DNA of 20,524 bases from a virus. The notes under the pieces were generated by a model. That model saw nothing but the letters and a program-made list of their open reading frames with translations, was not told the DNA's origin and did not search any database. The stretch covers positions 1 through 20,524 of the IMG/VR virus record IMGVR_UViG_3300043395_000220, one strand, 5' to 3'. The translations under genes and the position numbers were made by a program. Below are positions 6,340 to 17,748 of this stretch, piece by piece. Position 1 is the first letter of the stretch; each line of letters begins with the position of its first letter.

Positions 6340-6993
6340 TTATTCCTCTAATTGCTCAAAATCTTTCCATCCGTACTCGTAAGTCCCGATGTGCCTAATG
6401 TGCATTGATAGCTCATGGTCTACATACGTCTGAAAGCCCTCAGAACCAGCCTTGACGCAGAAATATACATCCTCACCACATACACCGTTAGAACCCCATC
6501 CAGCATCGAACCAAGGTCTACCAGTCTTCTCAAACACTTCCTTACGGATCATTACAGCACCAAATCCCACCGCTGTAACCTCCTCGATTCCCTCTTTACC
6601 GCGAGAATCTACATTAGACCACTTACGAACCTCAGTATCGCCATCCATGTACCTAGTCAAAATCTTTGCCGTAGGTGTGACAGGCTTTCTCCGAGTCGTA
6701 GCATTTACCCCTACTATCGGCACGTTACGACTTAACATTATCGTAATCATGTCGTGAGGAAACCGCATATCGCTATCAATAAACAATAGCGCATCACATC
6801 CCTCACCTAAAGCCACCTCTGCTAACTTCTCACGCTGGTCAAATATCAAGGTTCCCGGCATTGTGTACAAACTCAATCCACCTTTACCGTCCTTGCATCG
6901 GATTGAAGCATCATGCGCTGTCATCCGAGCAAAATCAAACGCAAAACCAGTATGAACCTCATCCCTGCACGGTACGCAAACACCTACTCTCAT
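6340..6993 (-). CDS. Glycosyltransferase-like protein (GT-A, DxD) in head/neck operon
   Basis: The 217-aa product starts with 'RVGVCVPCRDEVHTGFAFDFARM', a Rossmann-type first strand typical of GT2-like transferases. At residues 71-75 it has 'FIDSDM', the D-S-D metal/nucleotide-sugar motif following a hydrophobic strand. A region 'EEVTAVGFGAVMIRKEVFEKTGRPWFDA' leads to 'GEDVYFCVKAG' (E174-D175, the usual catalytic-base area), and 'MHIRHIGTYEYGW' follows near the end. It overlaps the upstream gene by 4 bases (ATGA) and is in the middle of virion genes. It probably transfers a sugar to a protein, polysaccharide or DNA; the acceptor is unknown. Proteins of this type recur in marine and freshwater podoviruses at similar positions. 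Confidence 0.78.
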   Translation of the reverse strand: MRVGVCVPCRDEVHTGFAFDFARMTAHDASIRCKDGKGGLSLYTMPGTLIFDQREKLAEVALGEGCDALLFIDSDMRFPHDMITIMLSRNVPIVGVNATTRRKPVTPTAKILTRYMDGDTEVRKWSNVDSRGKEGIEEVTAVGFGAVMIRKEVFEKTGRPWFDAGWGSNGVCGEDVYFCVKAGSEGFQTYVDHELSMHIRHIGTYEYGWKDFEQLEE

Positions 6994-7341: not shown

Positions 7342-8286
7342 TTACAGAGACATATCTAGATCGGCCACGATGCCATGAGCAGCCTCATTCTTGACTTCCA
7401 GAGTAACTTCAGCCAAGAGTTGAGTGTTCTCGCTGTCACCAACCTTAGCCAGATCATTAGTCTGGAACGGACGCAGATAAGCGAGTGCTGCGTACTCAGG
7501 ATCGAGTACCAGAGCTTCACGGGTACGCATGAAGCGGTTAGGAACAACCGACATCGTGCCAAAGTCCGACATATAGACATCAGCAGCACCGATAATGGTG
7601 GTCGGAGTATTCGACGGAGCCATGTAACGCTGTTGAGCGATACCAGCAAACGACGATACCTTCTGCTTACCAGAAGCACCAACCATCAGAATCTTCGGCG
7701 AACCACCGGAGACATAAACCTCAGAAACAACAGTCTTCAGCAGAGCCTCGGTGAAGGTACGCTGAGTACCGTCAGTACGAGTCGATACGCCGATAGTCGC
7801 AGGGTCAGCACCACCCGAACCAACGTCCGAGTTAGTCTTGATCCACGACAGGATCGAACCCAGCTTACGAGCGATAGTGGACGAACCAGCCGAACGACCT
7901 TGGTTAGCCAGCAGGATAGTCTCCAGATCACGCTTCAGTTCAGCAGAAGCCTTAGCCAACTGATAAGCCTTTTCCGACTTACGACCAGCCTTGTTTACTG
8001 TGTCCAAAGTACCCGAAACCTGAACGGTCTTCTGGATGATCTGGGTGTAGTTACCAAGACGAACGGTAGGAGACAGAGTTGCCGATGTAGCGTCAGCACC
8101 TTCAATCGCAGCGTTAGCCGTAGTAGCTGCAGCCAGCGAGTCAGTCTGCCACTCGTGATAAACGGCAGTAGCTTTAGTCTTGCCAATCGAGGACATAAAA
8201 GGAGTCTCGGTAGGCGAGATGTTGTAGATGATGTCGGTCAAATCTTCCCGCTGACCAATCGCGGTATGTGCTGTATATGTAGGCAT
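7342..8286 (-). CDS. Major capsid protein, DUF5309/SU10 type
   Basis: The 314-aa product has 'TYTAHTAIGQREDLTDIIYNISPTETPFMSSIGKTKATAVYHEWQTDSLAAA' at its N terminus, the hallmark of DUF5309 proteins that form the HK97-fold capsid in SU10-like podoviruses. Later come 'GNYTQIIQKTVQVSGT', 'AYQLAKASAELKRDLETILLANQGRS', 'KILMVGASGKQKVSSFAGIAQQRY' and 'DPEYAALAYLRPFQTNDLAKVGDSENTQLLAEVTLEV', matching the E-loop, spine-helix and P-domain order. AGGA lies about 7 bases before the ATG, and the scaffold gene ends 8 bases upstream. The scaffold-capsid order is the usual one. Confidence 0.92.
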   Translation of the reverse strand: MPTYTAHTAIGQREDLTDIIYNISPTETPFMSSIGKTKATAVYHEWQTDSLAAATTANAAIEGADATSATLSPTVRLGNYTQIIQKTVQVSGTLDTVNKAGRKSEKAYQLAKASAELKRDLETILLANQGRSAGSSTIARKLGSILSWIKTNSDVGSGGADPATIGVSTRTDGTQRTFTEALLKTVVSEVYVSGGSPKILMVGASGKQKVSSFAGIAQQRYMAPSNTPTTIIGAADVYMSDFGTMSVVPNRFMRTREALVLDPEYAALAYLRPFQTNDLAKVGDSENTQLLAEVTLEVKNEAAHGIVADLDMSL

Positions 8287-8294
8287 GATAGTTC

Positions 8295-9269
8295 CTATAA
8301 AAAGCGTTCAAATGCTCTAGCAGCATCAGCGACCCTTCCGGTCTGCTTAGCCCTAGCCTTTAGTTTCTTCATCTCGTCGTTGCCATCACGAGGCTGAGAA
8401 ACACCCGACTTAATCACCTTCGGAGCCTCATTCACCTTTTTCGTGATTCCCGGCTTTGCAGACTGTAGCTTGTCGTACTGCATTGCCTTCCACAACGTTA
8501 ATACTGCTCGCGAATCGTAAACATTCGCTAATTCTTGCTCTGAGAATCCCGCCTTCATTCCGAATTCACGGAGTTCACGACGTAATGTCTCGCCCTTCTG
8601 CGGGTCAGCATACTCAGGGATAACCTCTGCCAGCTTACGAGACTCAGCCTGTACTACCTGACCAAGTTGCTCCTGCTGTTCCCTCTGTTGCTGCTCGGCA
8701 ATCCTAGCCTGTTCTGCTCGAACTTGGGCTAATTGCTTCTCCCGCTGAGACAGTTCTGCGACCTTAACTGCGTAACCGATAGGATCGGTTTCCTTCAGAT
8801 AGTCCAGATTCTCAGTTTCCGGCTGCTGGTTAAGCATCTGCTCAATCACTTGCAACCGTTCCGCATATTGGTCGCGGAGATACCTAGCTTCCTCGATACG
8901 CTGGCGTTCGGCCTCAACTGCCTTGCGTTCTTCAGCTACAGCTTGCGATTTCTTCGTATAGTCCGTGCCAAGTTGATAAGACTTGATAAGCTCATCAAGG
9001 GTTACTTCCTTTTCTTCACCAGCGGCTTTAACGCGGTATTTAGGAGGCTCCTCTTGCTCATCTTCACCTTCATCTTGTTCTACCTCTGATTCTTCCTGAA
9101 CTTCGGCTTCCTCAGATTCGGCCTCGCTATCGTTGGCTTCGAGTTGCGGTTCAGGTTGTTCCTGTTCGGAGCCTTCTTCCGTACCCATAAGACCCAAGAT
9201 AGCGTTAGCTGCACCACCTACGTCTAACTGTGTATTCCCTTCCGGGGTCATACTTCCAGTATCGCTCAT
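8295..9269 (-). CDS. Head scaffolding protein
   Basis: The 324-aa product is highly charged and lacks globular motifs. Residues about 35-75 are almost all Glu/Asp with Gln (strongly acidic). 'YRVKAAGEEKEVTLDELIKSYQLGTDYTKKSQAV' follows, a segment common to phage scaffold proteins. A long coiled coil rich in E, Q, R and A runs from about residue 105 to 215. The C-terminal end is basic (residues about 295-324, ending RAKQTGRVADAARAFERFL), as in P22-like scaffolds where a basic helix-turn-helix binds coat protein. AGGAAA about 6 bases upstream of the ATG is a good ribosome site. It sits directly before the capsid gene. It would be expelled or cleaved on maturation; no protease was found in the window. 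Confidence 0.87.
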   Translation of the reverse strand: MSDTGSMTPEGNTQLDVGGAANAILGLMGTEEGSEQEQPEPQLEANDSEAESEEAEVQEESEVEQDEGEDEQEEPPKYRVKAAGEEKEVTLDELIKSYQLGTDYTKKSQAVAEERKAVEAERQRIEEARYLRDQYAERLQVIEQMLNQQPETENLDYLKETDPIGYAVKVAELSQREKQLAQVRAEQARIAEQQQREQQEQLGQVVQAESRKLAEVIPEYADPQKGETLRRELREFGMKAGFSEQELANVYDSRAVLTLWKAMQYDKLQSAKPGITKKVNEAPKVIKSGVSQPRDGNDEMKKLKARAKQTGRVADAARAFERFL

Positions 9270-9309: not shown

Positions 9310-9540
9310 TTACAAAATTTTCAGCCGCTTTTCGTCTATCAGCTTCTGTGCCGATAGCCCTTCAAGGTAGGCCTCAATCTTCTCTAATGCCCTTAGCTGG
9401 TGATAAGCATTTTCCCTTACCAAGCTATCACCAAACTCGCTCATAGCAAATTTGTTAATCTCTACTGACCGGAGTTCTTCCATCATTGCCTGAAAGTACT
9501 CATCCCGCAGTAGATTCTCAGCCCATTGGCATTTGTCCAT
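9310..9540 (-). CDS. Small helical phage protein between portal and scaffold
   Basis: The 76-aa product is almost fully helical: 'CQWAENLLRDEYFQAMMEELRSVEINKFAMSEFGDS' then 'RENAYHQLRALEKIEAYLEGLSAQKLIDEKRLKIL'. A small helical protein of this type between portal and scaffold is frequent in podoviruses, where it is often left unnamed. AAGGAA 5 bases before the ATG supports the start. It follows the AT-rich gene by 8 bases. Its role is unknown; a head-assembly or portal-associated factor is plausible. Confidence 0.82.
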   Translation of the reverse strand: MDKCQWAENLLRDEYFQAMMEELRSVEINKFAMSEFGDSLVRENAYHQLRALEKIEAYLEGLSAQKLIDEKRLKIL

Positions 9541-9548
9541 TAAATTCC

Positions 9549-10262
9549 TTACTTGGATTTACTAGATTCATTCAATTTTTTTAACATTTCTAAATGATCT
9601 GACCCAACAAAAAACACGCCTTTCGGCTGACTTAACAGCCAACGTTGCCTTGATTCGTTAGCCTTATCTGCCATCTTCCTTGCTTGAGTATCACCAGACT
9701 CCCACATTAGTTTCTCGCCACGCTTTAAGAAAGACTCAACATTCTTCTCAGTTGCTATTTTTTGACTATCGTTTACAAACTCTTTCCCCATTGAATTTAA
9801 GAAACTATTAAGTTCTTTGTAACCGTAACGGCGATCTTTGAAGTAGCCTATTTGTTGTTGATTTTTTAATATCGCGTCAAAAATAGTGTTATCAGAAACA
9901 AGCGAATCTTTTTGTTTATTAACATCTGTGTTAGTAAATATAGTATACAAATATTCAGATGGATAGCCCTTAACGGACTTTGCAGCCAGATCATCCCATG
10001 AGCCTTTGTATTTGATGCCAGCAAGTTTATCGCCTCCAGCACCCTCATAAAAAGCACCAACTTGATTAGCTAGGCTTTTAATCTCTGATGGCAACTTAAC
10101 ATTTTTGCCATGTTCTTGCCCAACGAATACCAATCCCGGTTTTGGAGAATAAACAGGGGAATCGTTAGCGGATTCATTTGGGTCACTAAACAAAAGACCA
10201 TAACTAGGTTTAGATGGTTTATTGTCTACAAACCCTAGAATGTCGCTCAGTAAGCCAGCCAT
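9549..10262 (-). CDS. Putative TIKI/TraB-like hydrolase encoded after the portal
   Basis: The 237-aa product has an N-terminal 'MAGLLSDILGF' stretch, then a hydrophobic strand ending in a GxxH motif, 'GLVFVGQEHG' (G48, H51), and 'LPSEIKSLANQVGAFYEGAG' with E73. The middle is polar and helical. Near the C terminus, 'TQARKMADKANESRQRW' (R195, R205, R207) precedes a second strand and GxxH, 'GVFFVGSDHLEMLKKL' (G220, H223). Two GxxH motifs, an acidic residue after the first and Arg before the second define the TIKI superfamily (Tiki, TraB/GumN, ChaN, EreA, toxin C-terminal domains), which are metal-dependent proteases or hydrolases. I see no transmembrane segment or signal peptide. The gene is visibly AT-richer than its neighbours, as for a late insertion, yet it joins the portal gene by TAATG. 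The product may be packaged and injected. The family call is motif-based only. Confidence 0.6.
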   Translation of the reverse strand: MAGLLSDILGFVDNKPSKPSYGLLFSDPNESANDSPVYSPKPGLVFVGQEHGKNVKLPSEIKSLANQVGAFYEGAGGDKLAGIKYKGSWDDLAAKSVKGYPSEYLYTIFTNTDVNKQKDSLVSDNTIFDAILKNQQQIGYFKDRRYGYKELNSFLNSMGKEFVNDSQKIATEKNVESFLKRGEKLMWESGDTQARKMADKANESRQRWLLSQPKGVFFVGSDHLEMLKKLNESSKSK

Positions 10263-12370
10263 TACATTTGATTCCCAGTCAGATTACCTAGCTCTTTAAT
10301 CGCCTTCAGGACAATATCAGCCTGTTTGTTACGGCTGTCCTCGTCAGCAATGTCCATCGCCAAGATAGCCTGAAGTTGTTTAACAGCCAACTCAGCCTCT
10401 TTGATACGCATCTCAGAAGCACTACGCTCCTGCTGCATCGCCATTTCCATGCCCTTACGAGTAAATTCAGCCTCTAGTTGCTGCTTCTGTAAGTCTAGTT
10501 TCGCAGCCTCAATCTGAGCCTTAGCCTCGGTCTTTTCTCTCTCTACCTGAGCCAGCATCTGAGCGACTTCAGCCTGAGCATCTGGAGCAGGTGGCTGTGG
10601 CTGAGACAATGCGTCATTGAGTTCAGGGCTGATCTCGTTAATGAATGCCTTAGCATCCTTGAAACCAGCCGATTCAATCAGTCTCGCTAAGGTATCTCGG
10701 TACTGAGCCACAGATACCACAGGATTCGATGCGCCAAACTGAGTCAGAATCTGCTCTTGCTTGGCTAGGATCATCTGCAACATGGCTAGTTTCTGCTCTC
10801 TGTCCCCCGAACCCAGACCGACGTTAATCGCCACATCGTACTGATTCGTCCATGTACGAGGATCAAACGTCACAAACTTGCCACGCATACGGACAATCTT
10901 GGCCTGATCCTGATACTTGCCCAATAGATGCAAAATCCCCTTAAACAGACTCTTTACGCCTGTCTCAGCAAAGATTCGAGCAATCAACTCCAGCTTGCCA
11001 GAGTTCGACTTCATCATGGCTGCAATAGCCGTAGCACTCACGTTATTGAGTACATCCGGGTCTAAACCCTGCTGCTGGTCGCTAACGCCTGTACGCTTGG
11101 CCTGAACACCATCCATGTACTCAAGCATCGGGAAAGCCTGAGCCGTAACCGCAGGAACCTCGACAGGAGTAATCGCACCCGCAGACTTCATACGGATAAT
11201 GCCGCCCGGAGTTGCATTAAGAGCATCATCCAGATTGACCTGACCATCAACCACACCCAGACGAGCATTGTTCGTTAGGTACAGGTTATCCAGCATTTGT
11301 CTCGTAACCGTAGACTTGATTAGCTGGATGTCCATCGTCCGGTCTGCTAGAGACTGACCAAAGAACTTATGCGGAATCGGGATAGGACACAGGCTGTGGA
11401 ACGGTACTAGGTCACATTCCTCGTCATCCAAGATTTCGTTGCCAGCGTAGACAATCTTCCGCAGTTCAGCGATTCCATCCCCATTAACGTCGATCTTGAT
11501 ATAACACTCGTAGACCTCGCAAACCTGCATCGTTGGGTCGAGAGAGATGTTCTCATCCGGCTGCTCACCCTGACTGAATCGAGCAATACGCTCAGTCGTA
11601 AACTGGAGATCGTCGTAGCTAGGCAACCCTTCTACGATGTCCTTGTCAAAACCCATCGCTATGAGTTCCGAACGAGTCATCAACCGACGATGAGCTACAA
11701 ACGGGCTATCCTCAATAGTTCTTGCCGATTTGCTAATTAGGAATTCTTCCGGCGGTACGTTCTCAACCTTCACGCAGCCGTACTTCTTGGTTTTCTTGAC
11801 CTTGACCGAGTAGTAAGGAATCTGGATAGGCATACCCATCATATCCACACCACCGTCCACCATCTCTACCTTCTGGCTCACTACCTCAATGGCAGGATCA
11901 GACAACAATAGGGCTAGCTCGTCTTCAGTCAGGTTCTTGTAGGATTCCTTGTTTACGTCCTCTTTGGCTTCCCAATACGCCTTGACCACGCCAACCTTCA
12001 TCATCAGCGCGTCTTTGAACCAGTTGTGCAGGATGATTAGACCGTCATTCTCACGGTAAAAGACCCAGTTACAGTAGTCGGTAGCCTGTTTAGCGGACTC
12101 CTCATCTTCTGGAGTCTGAGGCTCAAAGGAGACAATATCCTCGGTGGTCGTAAAGACCCGGATAAGTTGTGGCAATGCACCGTCGATAGCCTCGGCTACC
12201 TCGCCAGTTACGATCTGGCTACGGCCTTCTACCTCGTTACCATACGGATAACGCAGGTAATACTCTAGGGCTTTGGATCGCTGATCCGTAGTCTCGGTAT
12301 CAACATACCCAATAGAGTTATCGATTTCGTTCTCGATAATACTCTTGATTTGACCCTCATCCATCTTCAT
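10262..12370 (-). CDS. Portal protein, SU10/P22-like
   Basis: The 702-aa product has the family's N-terminal helices with 'YYLRYPYGNEVEGRSQIVTGEVAEAIDGALPQLIRVF', then 'NWVFYRENDGLIILHNWFKDALMMKVGVVKAYWE'. The clip/wing region carries 'VPPEEFLISKSARTIEDSPFVAHRRLMTRSEL'. A stem region 'FFGQSLADRTMDIQLIKSTVTRQMLDNLYLTNNARL' is followed by 'GIIRMKSAGAITPVEVP'. From about residue 595 to the end lies a Gln/Glu/Lys-rich coiled coil that may project into the capsid like the P22 barrel. AAGGA lies 7 bases before the ATG at 12370. It forms the dodecameric DNA channel. It sits 26 bases after the large terminase. Confidence 0.9.
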   Translation of the reverse strand: MKMDEGQIKSIIENEIDNSIGYVDTETTDQRSKALEYYLRYPYGNEVEGRSQIVTGEVAEAIDGALPQLIRVFTTTEDIVSFEPQTPEDEESAKQATDYCNWVFYRENDGLIILHNWFKDALMMKVGVVKAYWEAKEDVNKESYKNLTEDELALLLSDPAIEVVSQKVEMVDGGVDMMGMPIQIPYYSVKVKKTKKYGCVKVENVPPEEFLISKSARTIEDSPFVAHRRLMTRSELIAMGFDKDIVEGLPSYDDLQFTTERIARFSQGEQPDENISLDPTMQVCEVYECYIKIDVNGDGIAELRKIVYAGNEILDDEECDLVPFHSLCPIPIPHKFFGQSLADRTMDIQLIKSTVTRQMLDNLYLTNNARLGVVDGQVNLDDALNATPGGIIRMKSAGAITPVEVPAVTAQAFPMLEYMDGVQAKRTGVSDQQQGLDPDVLNNVSATAIAAMMKSNSGKLELIARIFAETGVKSLFKGILHLLGKYQDQAKIVRMRGKFVTFDPRTWTNQYDVAINVGLGSGDREQKLAMLQMILAKQEQILTQFGASNPVVSVAQYRDTLARLIESAGFKDAKAFINEISPELNDALSQPQPPAPDAQAEVAQMLAQVEREKTEAKAQIEAAKLDLQKQQLEAEFTRKGMEMAMQQERSASEMRIKEAELAVKQLQAILAMDIADEDSRNKQADIVLKAIKELGNLTGNQM

Positions 12371-12396: not shown

Positions 12397-13653
12397 TTAT
12401 ACAATCCATTTGGTCGAAATTGGCAATGTTGTCTGCCATGAACTATCTGATTCGTCAAGACCTATGGCGAGATACCTAAAAGAATCACTCATGTGGCTAG
12501 ACCAGTCGTGGAGTGGCTTTTCATAGAATATCTGCCGCCTCTCGTCATGTTCCCGCCTGTAGTTCCGTAAGGCATCCAACCCCTGCTTAGTCCTCAAATG
12601 GAACCAGCACCTCGGTAACAGCCTCCTCACAGCCTGAATCCCGTCAGCCACAGACAATCTAGGTGCAATCGTGATTGACAGCCCTGCTTCCTCTAAGACC
12701 TCTCTACGGCTCTTGCCTGTGCCTAGCTCCCTCACCTGTACGTCATGGGGCAGGATTTGACTGAACCCTGCGTAGTCATTGTCCTTCAGCCACCTAACGT
12801 ACCAATCTAGCCCCTGTCCATGATTTTCGACGCAATCAATGAGTCTAACTTCCTTTCCAGCCAGTTGAGCAACCCATAAAGCAGTTGAGTCACCCATTCC
12901 AAGATCCCAAGCAACAAAGCTACGGCAGAGATCGTCACGAGGAAAATCACTAATGTGACCATCCCTCTCAAGGTCGTTAATAAGTTTCCCATAGTAACTA
13001 CCCTCGACTGCTGCGTTAAAGGAACATTCGAATTCCTGGTTGTACTTGTCCTCACCCATCTCACGATAGGCGGCTTTAAGCTCGGACTCAGGCAGTATCT
13101 TGGTCTGGCTAGCCTTGTACTCTAGGTACTTCCAGCCTTCTTCTTCCTTGGCTCTATCCGCTAGTTCAGCGAAATGGTTACGGCCTTTAGGAGTCCCAAT
13201 GAAAGCAGCCCACCCAAGACGGTCGGCAAGAGCAGGTCGGATGATCTCGTTCCAAATTCTCGGATTCTGATCGCCAACTTCGTCGATAACCACGCCATCG
13301 AAATACTGACCGCGCAGACTGTCAGGATTGTCAGACCCGTAAAGACTAACCCTACGCCCCCAAAAGTCAACCCGTAACTCAGCAATGTTTGCAGTTGCAT
13401 TAAGTGGCCTTGTGTACTCTAGTAGGTAATCCCAAGCGACTCTCTTGGCTTGGCTGTAGGTAGGTGCTATGTAAGCAAACCGAGGATTCGGCTTGTCGCA
13501 CTCTATCGAGGCTTTGATAAGGTGGTTAATTGCTGCCACAGACTTCCCCATACGACGATGGGCAACCACCACAGTAAAACGATGCTGCTCAATGGCATGG
13601 TGGATTTCCTCCTGCTGCTCCCTTGGCTCGTAAGGGATTATGATCTCTGTCAC
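12397..13653 (-). CDS. terL: Terminase large subunit
   Basis: The 418-aa product holds all expected motifs. They are Walker A-like A31-HRRMGKS, an adenine/Q-motif region with R11 and Q13-Q14, Walker B V121-VIDE with catalytic E125, and coupling motif GTP at 153-155. The RNase H-like nuclease has 'FVAWDLGMGDST' (D250, D255), 'LIDCVEN' (D273) and 'HDWSSHMSDSFRY' (D383, D390). The start is GTG, not ATG, overlapping the stop of the zinc-ribbon micro-gene as GTGA. The local ribosome site is weak (GGA about 8 bases upstream), so translation is probably coupled to the micro-gene. The protein pumps DNA through the portal and cuts it. Confidence 0.95.
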   Translation of the reverse strand: MTEIIIPYEPREQQEEIHHAIEQHRFTVVVAHRRMGKSVAAINHLIKASIECDKPNPRFAYIAPTYSQAKRVAWDYLLEYTRPLNATANIAELRVDFWGRRVSLYGSDNPDSLRGQYFDGVVIDEVGDQNPRIWNEIIRPALADRLGWAAFIGTPKGRNHFAELADRAKEEEGWKYLEYKASQTKILPESELKAAYREMGEDKYNQEFECSFNAAVEGSYYGKLINDLERDGHISDFPRDDLCRSFVAWDLGMGDSTALWVAQLAGKEVRLIDCVENHGQGLDWYVRWLKDNDYAGFSQILPHDVQVRELGTGKSRREVLEEAGLSITIAPRLSVADGIQAVRRLLPRCWFHLRTKQGLDALRNYRREHDERRQIFYEKPLHDWSSHMSDSFRYLAIGLDESDSSWQTTLPISTKWIV

Positions 13654-14081: not shown

Positions 14082-15305
14082 TTACTCATCTGTCAACAAT
14101 ACGGCTTTCTTGCCGGTGAAATCTTCCCATCTCTTTACTATTACATCACAGTATTTAGGGTCTAGTTCCATTAGCCTTGCATATCTTCCATGTTTCTCAG
14201 CTGCAATCATAGTTGTGCCAGATCCGCCAAAGCTATCCAGCACTATATCGCCGCCCTTTGTATTGTTAAGCATTTGGTAAGCAAATAGCTCCACCGGCTT
14301 CATCGTCGGGTGTTCGCCGTTTCTCGATGGCTTGTCAAATTCCAAGACGGTTGTTTGTTTCCTGTCAGCCGCCCAAAGATGGCCAGCGCCGTCCTTCCAA
14401 CCATATAAGCAAGGCTCATGCCTCCAATGATAATCTTGCCTACCCATAACAATTGATGATTTTTTCCAAATCAAACATTGCCTAACTTTCCAACCGGCAT
14501 CTTGTGCCGCACCTCGAAAGTTATAACCTTCACTATCCGCATGCCAAATATAAAATACAGCACCAGATTTCATTACTGTGTCTGCTGTTACATAAGCATC
14601 CCGCAAGAATTGTCGAAACTCATCGTCATTCATTTTATCGTTTTTAACAACAAGTCCATCAGTACGTCTGTTTCTTTTTTTAGCTTGCTCTGGAGTTTCG
14701 TCCATACCAAGAGCCACGTTATATGGTGGGTCAGTCAACCACATATCTACCAATTGCCCGGCGCACAGTTTTTCCATGTCGGTAATACTGCACGAATCCC
14801 CACACATTAACCGATGATTGCCAAGTTGATAAATATCACCTAGCTTTGTCTTAGGCTCTACCGGAGTTTCAGGTACGGCATCCTCGTCCGTTAATCCATC
14901 TACCTGCTCAGGCTCCAGCAGCTTATCTAGCTCTTTAGGGTCGAATCCGAGTACGTCCATCTCGAACCCTTGTTCCTTTAGGTCGGCTAGTTCCAACGAT
15001 AACAAGGTCGTATCCCAACCTGCGTTCATGGCTAGTTGATTGTCGGCAATGACGTAAGCCCGTTTCTGGCTCTCCGTCATATGCTTTAGCTCGATAACCG
15101 GAACTTCCTTCTGCCCTAGCTTTCTTGCAGCCAATAGCCGCCCATGACCAGCTATAACGCCGCTTTCCCCGTCCACAAGGATAGGGTTAGTCCAGCCGAA
15201 TTCTTTGATACTTGCCGCGATCTGGGCTACTTGACCGTCAGAATGTGTCCTACTGTTCCTGACGTAAGGGATGAGTTTCTCTACTGATACTGTCTTTATC
15301 TGCAC
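14082..15305 (-). CDS. ParB-like domain fused to DNA methyltransferase (N6/N4)
   Basis: The 407-aa product has an N-terminal ParB/Srx-like nuclease-fold domain (residues about 1-90: 'VEKLIPYVRNSRTH', 'IAASIKEFGWTNPILVD', 'VIAGHGRLLAARKLG', 'RAYVIADNQLAMNAGWD'). A linker follows, then a beta-class amino-methyltransferase with 'CGDS' at 168-171, catalytic D192-PPY, a target-recognition region, and the SAM-binding 'LDSFGGSGTT' at 356-365. DPPY means adenine-N6 or cytosine-N4; the target site cannot be read. The start is GTG with AAAGG 9 bases upstream. ParB-methyltransferase fusions are known in phages, usually as orphan enzymes protecting phage DNA from host restriction. No paired restriction enzyme gene is seen here; the HNH gene further upstream is a different family. 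Confidence 0.92.
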   Translation of the reverse strand: MQIKTVSVEKLIPYVRNSRTHSDGQVAQIAASIKEFGWTNPILVDGESGVIAGHGRLLAARKLGQKEVPVIELKHMTESQKRAYVIADNQLAMNAGWDTTLLSLELADLKEQGFEMDVLGFDPKELDKLLEPEQVDGLTDEDAVPETPVEPKTKLGDIYQLGNHRLMCGDSCSITDMEKLCAGQLVDMWLTDPPYNVALGMDETPEQAKKRNRRTDGLVVKNDKMNDDEFRQFLRDAYVTADTVMKSGAVFYIWHADSEGYNFRGAAQDAGWKVRQCLIWKKSSIVMGRQDYHWRHEPCLYGWKDGAGHLWAADRKQTTVLEFDKPSRNGEHPTMKPVELFAYQMLNNTKGGDIVLDSFGGSGTTMIAAEKHGRYARLMELDPKYCDVIVKRWEDFTGKKAVLLTDE

Positions 15306-15325: not shown

Positions 15326-16033
15326 TCATGCGTATATCGCTTCGTACATATCGGGACGATGTTTCAATATCCACGCCCTCGGTTCTTCGTGACATTTCTT
15401 GAAATCAACACCTACGGTCTGGCTTCCTGCATGATGCACATAAGCCCTACTCACGAAATGCTGATAACCCGCCACGTTCAAGTCATGGCATATTATATTA
15501 TCTGAATACCAATTAGTTGACGGGAACTTAGCTACTTCCCATGCTTCCCGGCTGATACTTGCCCAGATAGGCGCAATTACCGGAGTCAACTTGATCTGAT
15601 GCTCACTTTCCCACTTCAATCCTGCCCGTCTGTCCCCGTCTACCGGAAACCTGATGTTCTGATCCGGCAACACATAGTCACTTCTTGCACCTAAGAATCC
15701 GTATTTCACGCCACGAGACTCCAGAATTCCCACATCTTCCCGCATTAACGATAGCGTATCTGGATTAAGAACCACATCATCATTAGCTAAAATCAATGAG
15801 TCAAACTTGCCATGAGAAAAGGCGTAGTCAACGGCTGCGTTATAAGCATCTCCGAAATTGGCAGCAGGATTGGGTCGGTAGATAAGGTTGTCTGTGATCT
15901 CTCTTGCTCTAGCCCAAAGTCCCAAATTATTAGAACAAAGGTATACGGGTAACTTGTCACCATAGCAACGAATAGACTCCAGCAGCACAGTAATGCCGGG
16001 ATTGTTTACCGTACAGATTACGATTGCTTGCAT
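15326..16033 (-). CDS. GT2-type glycosyltransferase
   Basis: The 235-aa product starts 'QAIVICTVNNPGITVLLESIRCYGDKLPVYLCSN', the first strands of a GT-A fold. It has 'NFGDAYNAAVDYAF' before 'DSLILANDDVVLNPDTL', with the N-D-D metal/nucleotide-sugar motif at 84-86. Later come 'FLGARSDYVLP', 'PIWASISREAWEVAKF', a conserved H-D-x-N at 183-186 and 'AYVHHAGSQTVG' (H200-H201), a C-terminal signature of rhamnosyl-type GT2 enzymes. The start overlaps the methyltransferase by 16 bases. Acceptor unknown: capsid or tail protein, surface polysaccharide or modified DNA base. It is a distant relative, at most, of the glycosyltransferase in the neck operon. Confidence 0.82.
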   Translation of the reverse strand: MQAIVICTVNNPGITVLLESIRCYGDKLPVYLCSNNLGLWARAREITDNLIYRPNPAANFGDAYNAAVDYAFSHGKFDSLILANDDVVLNPDTLSLMREDVGILESRGVKYGFLGARSDYVLPDQNIRFPVDGDRRAGLKWESEHQIKLTPVIAPIWASISREAWEVAKFPSTNWYSDNIICHDLNVAGYQHFVSRAYVHHAGSQTVGVDFKKCHEEPRAWILKHRPDMYEAIYA

Positions 16034-16539
16034 ATGCCCCAGAAATACAAATCTGCCGGACTAGTGTTAGTAGAAAACTCATAAGTTGCAAACTTTGAAA
16101 GATCGCAGTTTTCCCTAAAGTCCTGCTCCGTTAGGTTCCGGTAATAATCCCCGCAAAATGGCGCATCATCCGGGCTTGTACGCCTCGTTCCATGTTCAGC
16201 CCTACCCGTAGTAGCACAAGTAAAAAAAACCAGCCCAGAAGCCATCCTGACCATATTATTGAAGGTCTTTACCCACTCAGGGTTATGCTCAAAGCACTCG
16301 CAGCTAGCCACAACGTCAAAACTATTGTCAGGGTAGTCCAGTTCCTCACCCCTAGCCACCACATCAACCCCTCGTCCCTCGCCAAGATCAACCCCAACAT
16401 AATCGCAGCCTACAAAGAATTGACGGATGGAACCGTTGATGTCCAGACTTCCAACCTCTAAGACCTTGGACTCGTAGAAATACTGTGGAAACCGCTTTTT
16501 TAGACCAGACACAAAGTCTAGCTGGCTCTGGTGGCTCAT
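16018..16539 (-). CDS. Class I SAM-dependent methyltransferase
   Basis: The 173-aa product has SAM motif I 'KVLEVGSLDINGS' (residues 25-37), an acidic residue after strand 2 in 'YVGVDLGEGRGVDV' (D51), 'EELDYPDNSFDVVASCECFEH' covering motifs II-III (about 66-85) and 'MVRMASGLVFFTCAT'. This is the Methyltransf_11 fold. A cysteine/histidine-rich end ('HGTRRTSPDDAPFCGDYYRNLT') is typical of the phage/GT-associated subgroup. It overlaps the lysine-rich gene upstream (ATGA) and the glycosyltransferase downstream, so both probably act on the same sugar or product. The substrate cannot be told from sequence. Confidence 0.82.
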   Translation of the reverse strand: MSHQSQLDFVSGLKKRFPQYFYESKVLEVGSLDINGSIRQFFVGCDYVGVDLGEGRGVDVVARGEELDYPDNSFDVVASCECFEHNPEWVKTFNNMVRMASGLVFFTCATTGRAEHGTRRTSPDDAPFCGDYYRNLTEQDFRENCDLSKFATYEFSTNTSPADLYFWGICKQS

Positions 16540-16835
16540 TTCTTTTTGTTTCTTGCGGATATAGCAGCAGCTTTAGCCTTGGCGTCAGCCTTGGAACTAG
16601 CTCCCCATGCCTTCAGACTCAGAAGTAGTCTAGTAGGCTCACCGTTAGGTTTACGCTCTGCTCCCGGCATATTACCCATCCGAGCTAGGAATGAAGCACG
16701 ACGAGGGTTATCGCCAGATTTAACAGGAGGCTTAAGATCAGAGCCGGGATTTGCAGCTTCGTAGGACTTTCTGCCCTTTTCATTCAAGCCACCCTTAGCG
16801 TTCTTACCGGCCTTCTTAGTCCATGCTGCGGCCAT
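16536..16835 (-). CDS. Small basic phage protein, DUF6321-like
   Basis: The 99-aa product starts 'AAAWTKKAGKNAKGGLNEKGRKSYEAANPGSDLKPPVK', then 'NPRRASFLARMGNMPG', which is the pattern I know from DUF6321, a phage-only family. Basic throughout; the C terminus is Ala/Lys-rich ('KADAKAKAAAISARNKKK'). Function unknown. It is the last of four small basic proteins encoded in a row and overlaps the preceding gene by 20 bases. A nucleic-acid-binding role is suggested only by charge. Confidence 0.82.
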   Translation of the reverse strand: MAAAWTKKAGKNAKGGLNEKGRKSYEAANPGSDLKPPVKSGDNPRRASFLARMGNMPGAERKPNGEPTRLLLSLKAWGASSKADAKAKAAAISARNKKK

Positions 16836-17123: not shown

Positions 17124-17287
17124 TTCTTCTTACCCTTCTTAGCCATGCCAGCTTCACTTAGGGCAATCGCTACGGCTTGTTTCGGATTAGTAACTACTTT
17201 CCCACCCTTACCGCTATGGAGAGTGCCTTCTTTGAACTCACCCATCACCTTACCGACCTTCTTTTGAGCCTTAGACATCTTTTTCAT
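17120..17287 (-). CDS. DUF6496-like small phage protein
   Basis: The product, 55 aa from the ATG at 17287, reads MKKMSKAQKKVGKVMGEFK, then 'GTLHSGKGGKVVTNPKQAVAIALSEAGMAKKGKKK'. 'KVMxEFKxGxLxSGxxGKVVxxxKQAxAIALSEA' is the signature of DUF6496. I chose the upstream ATG because GGAG is 7 bases before it; the ATG at 17278 lacks a ribosome site. The gene starts inside the HNH gene's last codons. Function is unknown. Confidence 0.87.
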   Translation of the reverse strand: MKKMSKAQKKVGKVMGEFKEGTLHSGKGGKVVTNPKQAVAIALSEAGMAKKGKKK

Positions 17288-17564
17288 TTAGCAACTCCAT
17301 AACTAAGTCTTGCAGTTCAGATTCAGTCACGGAATATCGTCGCTCAAATGCTTTACGACCCAAACCGTGATACCCAGTGTTACCCCTATGATGCTCAGGA
17401 CAAAGGGGGATAGCGTTAGAATGAGAATTCCTGACCCCCAGTCCTAACCCTACCCCCCTTATATGATGTATCTCAGCAGGAGTACCTGCGTATCCAAGTT
17501 TGTAACATAATATGCAACCTATGTCAGCAATCTCGGATAAAAATTCACGCTCCTTTTTCCGCAA
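17271..17564 (-). CDS. HNH nuclease, Ref/DUF968-like, TTG start
   Basis: The 97-aa product has 'CILC' (a zinc-binding pair), 'PAEIHHIRG' (catalytic His-His), 'VRNSHSNAIPLCPEHHRGNTGYHGLGRKAFERRY' and 'TESELQDLVMELL'. This arrangement matches small HNH proteins related to phage P1 Ref and DUF968, which nick or cut DNA, in Ref's case with RecA. No ATG lies upstream of the first motif. The TTG at 17564 has GAGG 7 bases upstream; another TTG at 17570 is too close to it. Rare-start use and the overlap with the preceding gene suggest low, coupled expression. It may act in recombination or in defence against other phages. Confidence 0.85.
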   Translation of the reverse strand: MRKKEREFLSEIADIGCILCYKLGYAGTPAEIHHIRGVGLGLGVRNSHSNAIPLCPEHHRGNTGYHGLGRKAFERRYSVTESELQDLVMELLNEKDV

Positions 17565-17748
17565 GTGCAAACCTCTTAGACGGATAATTTACAAACGACT
17601 CACCCTCGTTACATTCCTCGCAGCAGGTAACGATCTCATCGGATAAGTCCCTAGCCCTTGGAACCTCATCCCAGTCTATTACCCAGCCGCAATACTCACA
17701 TTGTGCCAAATTGCTATCATCTGGTACGTTGTCTTGTAGGGCAGTCAT
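17545..17748 (-). CDS. Small putative zinc-binding protein
   Basis: The 67-aa product has 'QCEYCGWVIDWDEVPRARDLSDEIVTCCEECNEGES', with CxxC and CCxxC pairs about 25 residues apart, a treble-clef or ribbon-like layout. The N terminus is polar (TALQDNVPDDSNLA) and the C terminus short (RFALAEKGA). AGGAG 8 bases before the ATG lies in the end of the upstream gene (KEKNT tail). It overlaps the HNH gene downstream by about 20 bases. Function unknown; DNA- or protein-binding adaptor is plausible. Confidence 0.78.
   Translation of the reverse strand: MTALQDNVPDDSNLAQCEYCGWVIDWDEVPRARDLSDEIVTCCEECNEGESFVNYPSKRFALAEKGA

Follow-up and report, generated by a model that had tools for sequence, protein, structure and literature searches.

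A phage protein family with a TIKI/TraB-like order of catalytic-type residues and a possible role as head-packaged cargo

Results

Genomic context of the gene

The window (the whole stretch of viral DNA analyzed here, 20,524 nucleotides of the IMG/VR record IMGVR_UViG_3300043395_000220) contains the head genes of an SU10-type phage, and among them a genuine open reading frame for a TIKI-like hydrolase-domain protein (Table 1). Its ATG overlaps the stop codon of the portal gene (...TGTAATGG...) and only 8 bases separate its own stop from the start of the next ORF, which places it inside the head operon. No promoter or terminator signals beyond chance level were detected within the gene block. 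A preliminary description of this DNA had located the gene between portal and scaffold, in an AT-rich insert. The portal gene does abut it, but a 76-aa ORF lies between it and the scaffolding gene. The AT-rich character was borne out, considering that GC content is 0.378 in this gene versus 0.494 in the portal and 0.502 in the scaffold gene, that GC3 is 0.324 versus 0.559 in the portal gene, and that an equal GC dip was observed at the family gene in four relatives (L001, L004, L018, and L090). Other minus-strand genes of the window include a fusion of ParB_N with an N6/N4 DNA methylase, located upstream of the terminase genes (14082-15305), an HNH/RecA-dependent-nuclease-like protein (17271-17570; PF16786, 6.7e-11), and two glycosyltransferase-like genes in the structural region, one with a weak Pfam match (6340-6993; E 0.016) and one named by eye (15326-16033).

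Table 1. Genes of the head operon and sequence features of the TIKI-like protein in the window
Feature	Position	Strand	Remarks
Major capsid protein (SU10_MCP)	7342..8286	(-)	PF17236 7.5e-104
Head scaffolding protein	8295..9269	(-)	phrog_3927 4.1e-54
76-aa conserved ORF, directly downstream of the TIKI-like gene	9310..9540	(-)	
TIKI-like hydrolase-domain protein, 237 aa	9549..10262	(-)	ATG start
Second GxxH, codons 220-224 (G220, H223, L224)	9591..9605	(-)	'VFFVGSDHL'; G220, H223 47/47
Arg205 codon, helix 193-211	9648..9650	(-)	47/47
Family-specific Y-K-G-S-W-D motif, residues 85-90	9993..10010	(-)	G87, S88, D90 47/47; W89 45/47
Glu73 codon (Y-E-G-x-G)	10044..10046	(-)	47/47; 'FYEGAGG'
First GxxH, codons 48-54 (G48, H51)	10101..10121	(-)	'VGQEHG'; G48, H51 46/46; AF2 strand 44-48
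Low-confidence N-terminal leader, two GLL motifs, residues ~1-33	10164..10262	(-)	pLDDT <50 for 1-32
Portal protein (SU10_portal), directly upstream of the TIKI-like gene	10262..12370	(-)	PF23899 6.8e-230
Terminase large subunit	12397..13653	(-)	phrog_2 3.2e-33

In the closest catalogued phages, MW202481 (portal 61% identical) and MT375522 (portal 53% identical), an ORF homologous to the 76-aa one comes directly after the portal gene, then the scaffold and capsid genes, and no family member was found between portal and scaffold or elsewhere in the stretches examined. The same slot is filled in MW202462 by an unrelated 540-aa ORF (L221 8029-9651), and the family gene of an SU10-like relative (L090) is located upstream of the terminase block. 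The portal-scaffold position is a cargo slot. The absence of the family gene from the closest catalogued phages, with the order of the operon otherwise kept, speaks against an essential maturation protease; a role as essential prohead protease was thus rejected, and the earlier suggestion that the enzyme might process virion proteins is weakened as far as an essential step is meant. The window gene is best seen as an accessory gene for cargo and not as one for a head protease that the phage needs.

Extent of the family

Scans of IMG/VR identified 204 family ORFs. At identity thresholds of 95% and 80%, these collapse into 81 and 47 clusters, respectively, numbers that describe the family better than the ORF count because one contig may recur across loci. 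Family members are between 81% and approximately 28% identical to the window protein, and they are distributed in SU10-like podophages, T4-like myophages, and phages with giant polyproteins. The window protein has no match in Pfam, PHROGs, PDB sequences, or NCBIfam, and no believable match to these databases was obtained for 36 family members. Six family queries against INPHARED (50,697 phage records) revealed no credible relative, nor did a search of 84,980 prokaryote genomes with narrow patterns only, which is not proof of absence there. Matches to DUF7656, phrog_36617, and Vibrio and RNA phage proteins were weak, short, and inconsistent and were dropped as relatives. A Foldseek search of BFVD with our first structural model returned a member of the family itself (A0A6J5NQK4) followed by B5LWA8 (E 0.035); a giant-virus protein annotated as TraB family appeared only at E 1.7. 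The window gene belongs to a large phage protein family that these collections do not catalogue.

Conserved residues and predicted structure

Conservation was counted over the 47 family clusters (80% identity; n=46 for some columns). All residues that the preliminary description had emphasized in the two GxxH motifs, together with Glu73, were found and are invariant in related phages (G48 and H51 in 46/46 clusters; E73, G220, and H223 in 47/47), with both GxxH pairs located after predicted strands. Further invariant positions are G69, G74, G76, G87, S88, D90, F109, N111, N115, and G215, and E183 is conserved in 45 of the 47 clusters. Three arginines had also been proposed on a helix just before the second GxxH; the helix stood, as residues 193-211 of the model carry R195, R205, and R207, but only R205 is conserved, R195 and R207 being present in 8/47 and 7/47 clusters, respectively. 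A calcineurin-like phosphatase reading of 'GDNH' was set aside, with Asp present in only 6/46 clusters.

The AF2 model built from 36 sequences has a mean pLDDT of 86.8, with values of at least 90 at 183 residues, and only residues 1-32 are disordered (pLDDT <50). Strands 44-48, 70-72, and 215-219 end just before H51, E73, and H223, respectively, and the arginine-bearing helix lies ahead of the last of them. In the model, H51, E73, and H223 would therefore each sit behind a core-sheet element, an arrangement that would suit a single active site.

Comparison with TIKI profiles and structures

An alignment of YbaP, PrgY, and nine other TraB proteins has eight invariant columns (L36, G38, H41, E67, Q164, R228, G249, and H252), six of which (G, H, E, R, G, and H) are matched in the phage family with their order kept, so that all invariant polar residues of the TraB profile are present in the family except one Gln. 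The spacing between the first His and Glu is 26 residues in 35 of 46 clusters, the same as in YbaP, and 22 in all others, the window protein among them. Comparison of the family with TraB by hhalign was not significant (probability 1.3-2%, P 0.025-0.038), with 3 of 150 column-shuffled controls scoring as high; when no confidence threshold was applied, the two GxxH motifs and the Arg of TraB nevertheless fall opposite those of the family in the alignment. Scored with the family HMM, PrgY and the TraB proteins of Lysinibacillus and Sphingomonas exceed all 200 of their own shuffles, one to three of 148 unrelated proteins equal these scores, and most other TraB proteins are unremarkable. Neither the window protein nor the 36 members reach the Pfam cut-off of PF01963 (TraB_PrgY_gumN).

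Foldseek, a route suggested earlier, listed no TIKI structure in PDB for either model and, for the second (pLDDT 86.8), nothing above probability 0.1. As a calibration, a sequence search with the TraB profile also fails to retrieve ChaN, Ere, HopBA1, and RRSP chains; because it misses these proteins too, silence at the sequence level is no evidence against TIKI. The structural silence of Foldseek is evidence against TIKI membership, and the order of fold elements appears compatible with the TIKI core by eye only. No confident match to an unrelated fold was found in the profile or structure searches. Of the assignment to the TIKI/TraB superfamily, what stood is the catalytic layout, which is invariant across the family; a fold match or a significant profile match did not emerge, and formal TIKI membership of the family is not proven. 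The idea that the protein works like a TIKI hydrolase is better supported than its membership in TIKI by fold or profile.

In EreC, H50 is the base, E78 and H289 hold the water, and R261 serves the transition state (PMC7979712). RRSP has a His-Glu-Arg-His set in the same order as the phage family, and some TIKI proteins are endopeptidases (PMC6254334). Tiki is metal dependent, whereas EreC and RRSP are metal independent (PMC7979712, PMC6254334), and the metal dependence attributed to the enzyme in the preliminary description is accordingly unsupported.

Fusions and gene positions in relatives

Most clusters consist of small standalone proteins, the window member among them. In several relatives, the family domain is part of a much larger protein: an 1821-aa protein with the domain at 1593-1818 (L138), proteins of >2002 aa (L137, beside DUF6321) and >2016 aa (L161), one of at least 1074 aa that also has a ParB_N domain (L187), a 990-aa protein (L136), a 658-aa protein with DUF6321 (L061), and a 507-aa protein with a 5'(3')-deoxyribonucleotidase domain (L067). 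The portal protein ORF lies directly upstream of the fusion in L061 and L161 and three genes upstream in L136. Within two genes of a family member, TerL was observed in 14/46 clusters and the portal in 6/46. The window itself has a separate DUF6321 protein on the minus strand (16536-16835; PF19846, 2.1e-23); in L061 and L137, this domain and the TIKI-like one are parts of a single protein.

Capsid-targeting N-termini

The first ten residues of T4 internal proteins target them into the prohead; positions 4 and 7 matter most for this targeting, and cleavage by gp21, which occurs after L/I-x-E, depends on positions 8 and 10 (PMC9026906). The N-terminus is MKTYQEFIAE in T4 IPII/IPIII and MKTFKEF in IPI (AF158101). 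Tag-like N-termini were detected in six family clusters, namely L147 (MKTFKQYIRE), L056 (MKTFKQYLRE), L146 (MLTFKQYIRE), L140 (MKSFLQFISE), L145 (MKTFRQFLYE), and L171 (MKSFKQFLRE), all with L/I-x-E at residues 8-10 and with the hydrolase-like domain beginning within approximately 10 residues after the tag; the predicted cleavage in a T4-like member is MKTFKQYIRE|Q. The strict tag pattern, which was chosen post hoc, is present in 6/46 family clusters versus 4/491 neighboring ORFs (Fisher P 5e-5), and these four ORFs are situated in the tagged members' own contigs. Looser tags ending in LFE, LIE, or LKE are present in further members. The contigs of L147 and L171 are T4-like by terminase and tail sheath (L147 by tube as well), and in L140 the tagged gene has genes for a phage DNA polymerase and UvsX next to it, the tag being retained outside the head operon. 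Genes directly upstream of three T4-like members are tagged alike, with MKTFKDFMIES in L056 (1511-2008), MKTFREYLEES in L171 (89-580), and MKTFREFMLEQ in L147 (449-853); judging from these N-termini, they may be more head cargo.

The leader of the window protein, MAGLLSDILGF, differs from the T4-type tag. In SU10-like phages, the portal-scaffold slot was also seen to house small accessory proteins that bear GLL motifs at one end or at each end (L003 2446-2784, L004 3735-3998, and L018 5342-5911), with sequences such as MNGLLGLLNF...PTGLLGR, MNGLLNYY...PIGLLESR, and ...PGLLGR. Podophages could use the GLL motifs as a tag for packaging, and any meaning of the MAGLLSDILGF head in the window phage is a guess. 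The earlier proposal of virion packaging thus fared unevenly: relatives have T4-type N-termini and giant, partly portal-adjacent polyproteins, which lend independent support to packaging of the family, but the leader on which the proposal had relied is no T4-type tag.

Discussion

Proposed mechanism and alternatives

On balance, we consider it probable, with some reservation, that the window gene encodes an accessory TIKI-like hydrolase or peptidase that is packaged in the head and delivered into the host with the DNA. The putative active site would be of TIKI/TraB/Ere type and lie at the C-terminal ends of the core strands, and we infer its fold class and catalysis from the conserved layout and the model. 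If EreC is taken as the guide, H51 would serve as general base and activate a water molecule, E73 and H223 would hold this attacking water, and R205 would stabilize the transition state; a host molecule would be hydrolyzed, possibly metal free, at a peptide or ester bond. In T4-like carriers, the N-terminal targeting peptide would send the protein into the prohead and be removed by the prohead protease; in other phages, the enzyme would be one domain of a giant polyprotein. The enzyme would then be ejected from the head along with the DNA. Packaging of the window member itself and injection into the host are the putative steps of this scheme. The substrate is most likely a host protein or peptide, and a co-packaged polyprotein is possible.

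Several other explanations need to be weighed. The gene is situated between portal and scaffold, the usual place of a prohead protease (portal-protease-scaffold-capsid), and endopeptidases are known among TIKI proteins (PMC6254334), both of which would suit a head-maturation protease cleaving scaffold or portal; such a role is nevertheless very improbable, considering that the closest catalogued relatives manage with portal, 76-aa ORF homologue, scaffold, and major capsid protein alone, that the gene lies upstream of the terminase genes in L090, and that the T4-like members resemble substrates of the prohead protease, not the protease. A cargo enzyme might instead act inside the particle or polyprotein and cut co-packaged proteins into active parts, a scenario that would explain the domain embedded in giant polyproteins and recalls polyvalent proteins, for which embedded peptidases such as zincin domains have been proposed as the processing enzymes (PMC5512222). 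We regard it as rather unlikely, because most clusters are small and standalone with no giant fusion partner, and no polyvalent-type giant ORF is present in the window (the record being a fragment).

That the family has an unrelated fold which converged on two GxxH motifs, with GSWD, FxN, and GExxMW forming the real site for another chemistry or for binding only, is unlikely, though it deserves somewhat more attention: no TIKI member is matched by fold or significant profile, and G87/S88/D90, F109, N111, and N115 are conserved as strongly as the GxxH pair. On the other side, all four catalytic-type residues keep the TraB/Ere order and a TraB-like first spacing, each directly follows a core strand or, in the case of R205, lies on the helix ahead of one, and a weak sequence score is to be expected when the TraB profile misses the ChaN, Ere, HopBA1, and RRSP structures. 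An unpackaged moron expressed in the infected cell, for host takeover or superinfection exclusion, would fit an accessory, AT-rich gene of variable position with some members in replication or unassigned regions; the tag-like leaders with a protease site in relatives and the giant fusions, part of them portal adjacent, speak against it and make it quite unlikely.

Significance

Enzymes delivered with phage DNA act ahead of phage gene expression. They are prime candidates for roles in anti-defence and takeover, and few are known. We tentatively propose, at somewhat less than even chance, that the family represents a widespread unrecognized class of injected TIKI-fold hydrolases that disable a host peptide or protein (e.g., a defence component) in the first minutes after infection, with several unrelated loading routes; these might comprise, with the same reserve, the T4-type tag, the giant polyprotein, and the podophage cargo slot. 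If true, TIKI-type chemistry would reach phage particles. Both claims, that the protein is packaged and that it is a hydrolase, are open to direct test. The phage family is new as an uncatalogued one, the kind of site and the kind of delivery are known, and their combination is undescribed in the literature searched.

Comparison with known systems

The TraB/PrgY/GumN proteins (PF01963; PrgY of pCF10 and YbaP of E. coli) have in common with the family both the succession of GxxH, approximately 26 residues, Glu, and a helical region, and the ending composed of an R[DN] helix, a strand, and GxxH-L. The phage family differs by its extra invariant GSWD, FxN, and GExxMW motifs, by an R-to-H spacing of 18-19 instead of 24 residues, and by being phage borne and without a membrane region. 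Erythromycin esterases EreA/EreC and Bcr135 have the H-E-R-H order of the family (EreC H50/E78/R261/H289; PMC7979712). The Ere proteins have an added minor lobe, and E47 of EreC, three residues before the first His, has no conserved counterpart in the phage family, where this position is Gly in 46/46 clusters. In RRSP and other TIKI endopeptidases, a pair of His residues and one Glu lie close to core strands and an Arg is conserved, as in the family (PMC6254334). The phage proteins are much smaller and match them neither by sequence nor by Foldseek; the targets of RRSP are eukaryotic.

With regard to delivery, polyvalent proteins of phages and conjugative elements are giant multidomain proteins in which domains are embedded just as the family domain is in relatives of the window gene, where some of the fusions are portal adjacent; several polyvalent proteins are known to be packaged, and the main text of their survey mentions none of Tiki, TraB, and EreA (PMC5512222). 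T4 internal head proteins (IPII/IPIII and Alt) are a further parallel: IPII/IPIII have a ten-residue targeting peptide with an L/I-x-E site, like the T4-like members of the family. Their cargo domain is unrelated, and the window member lacks this peptide.
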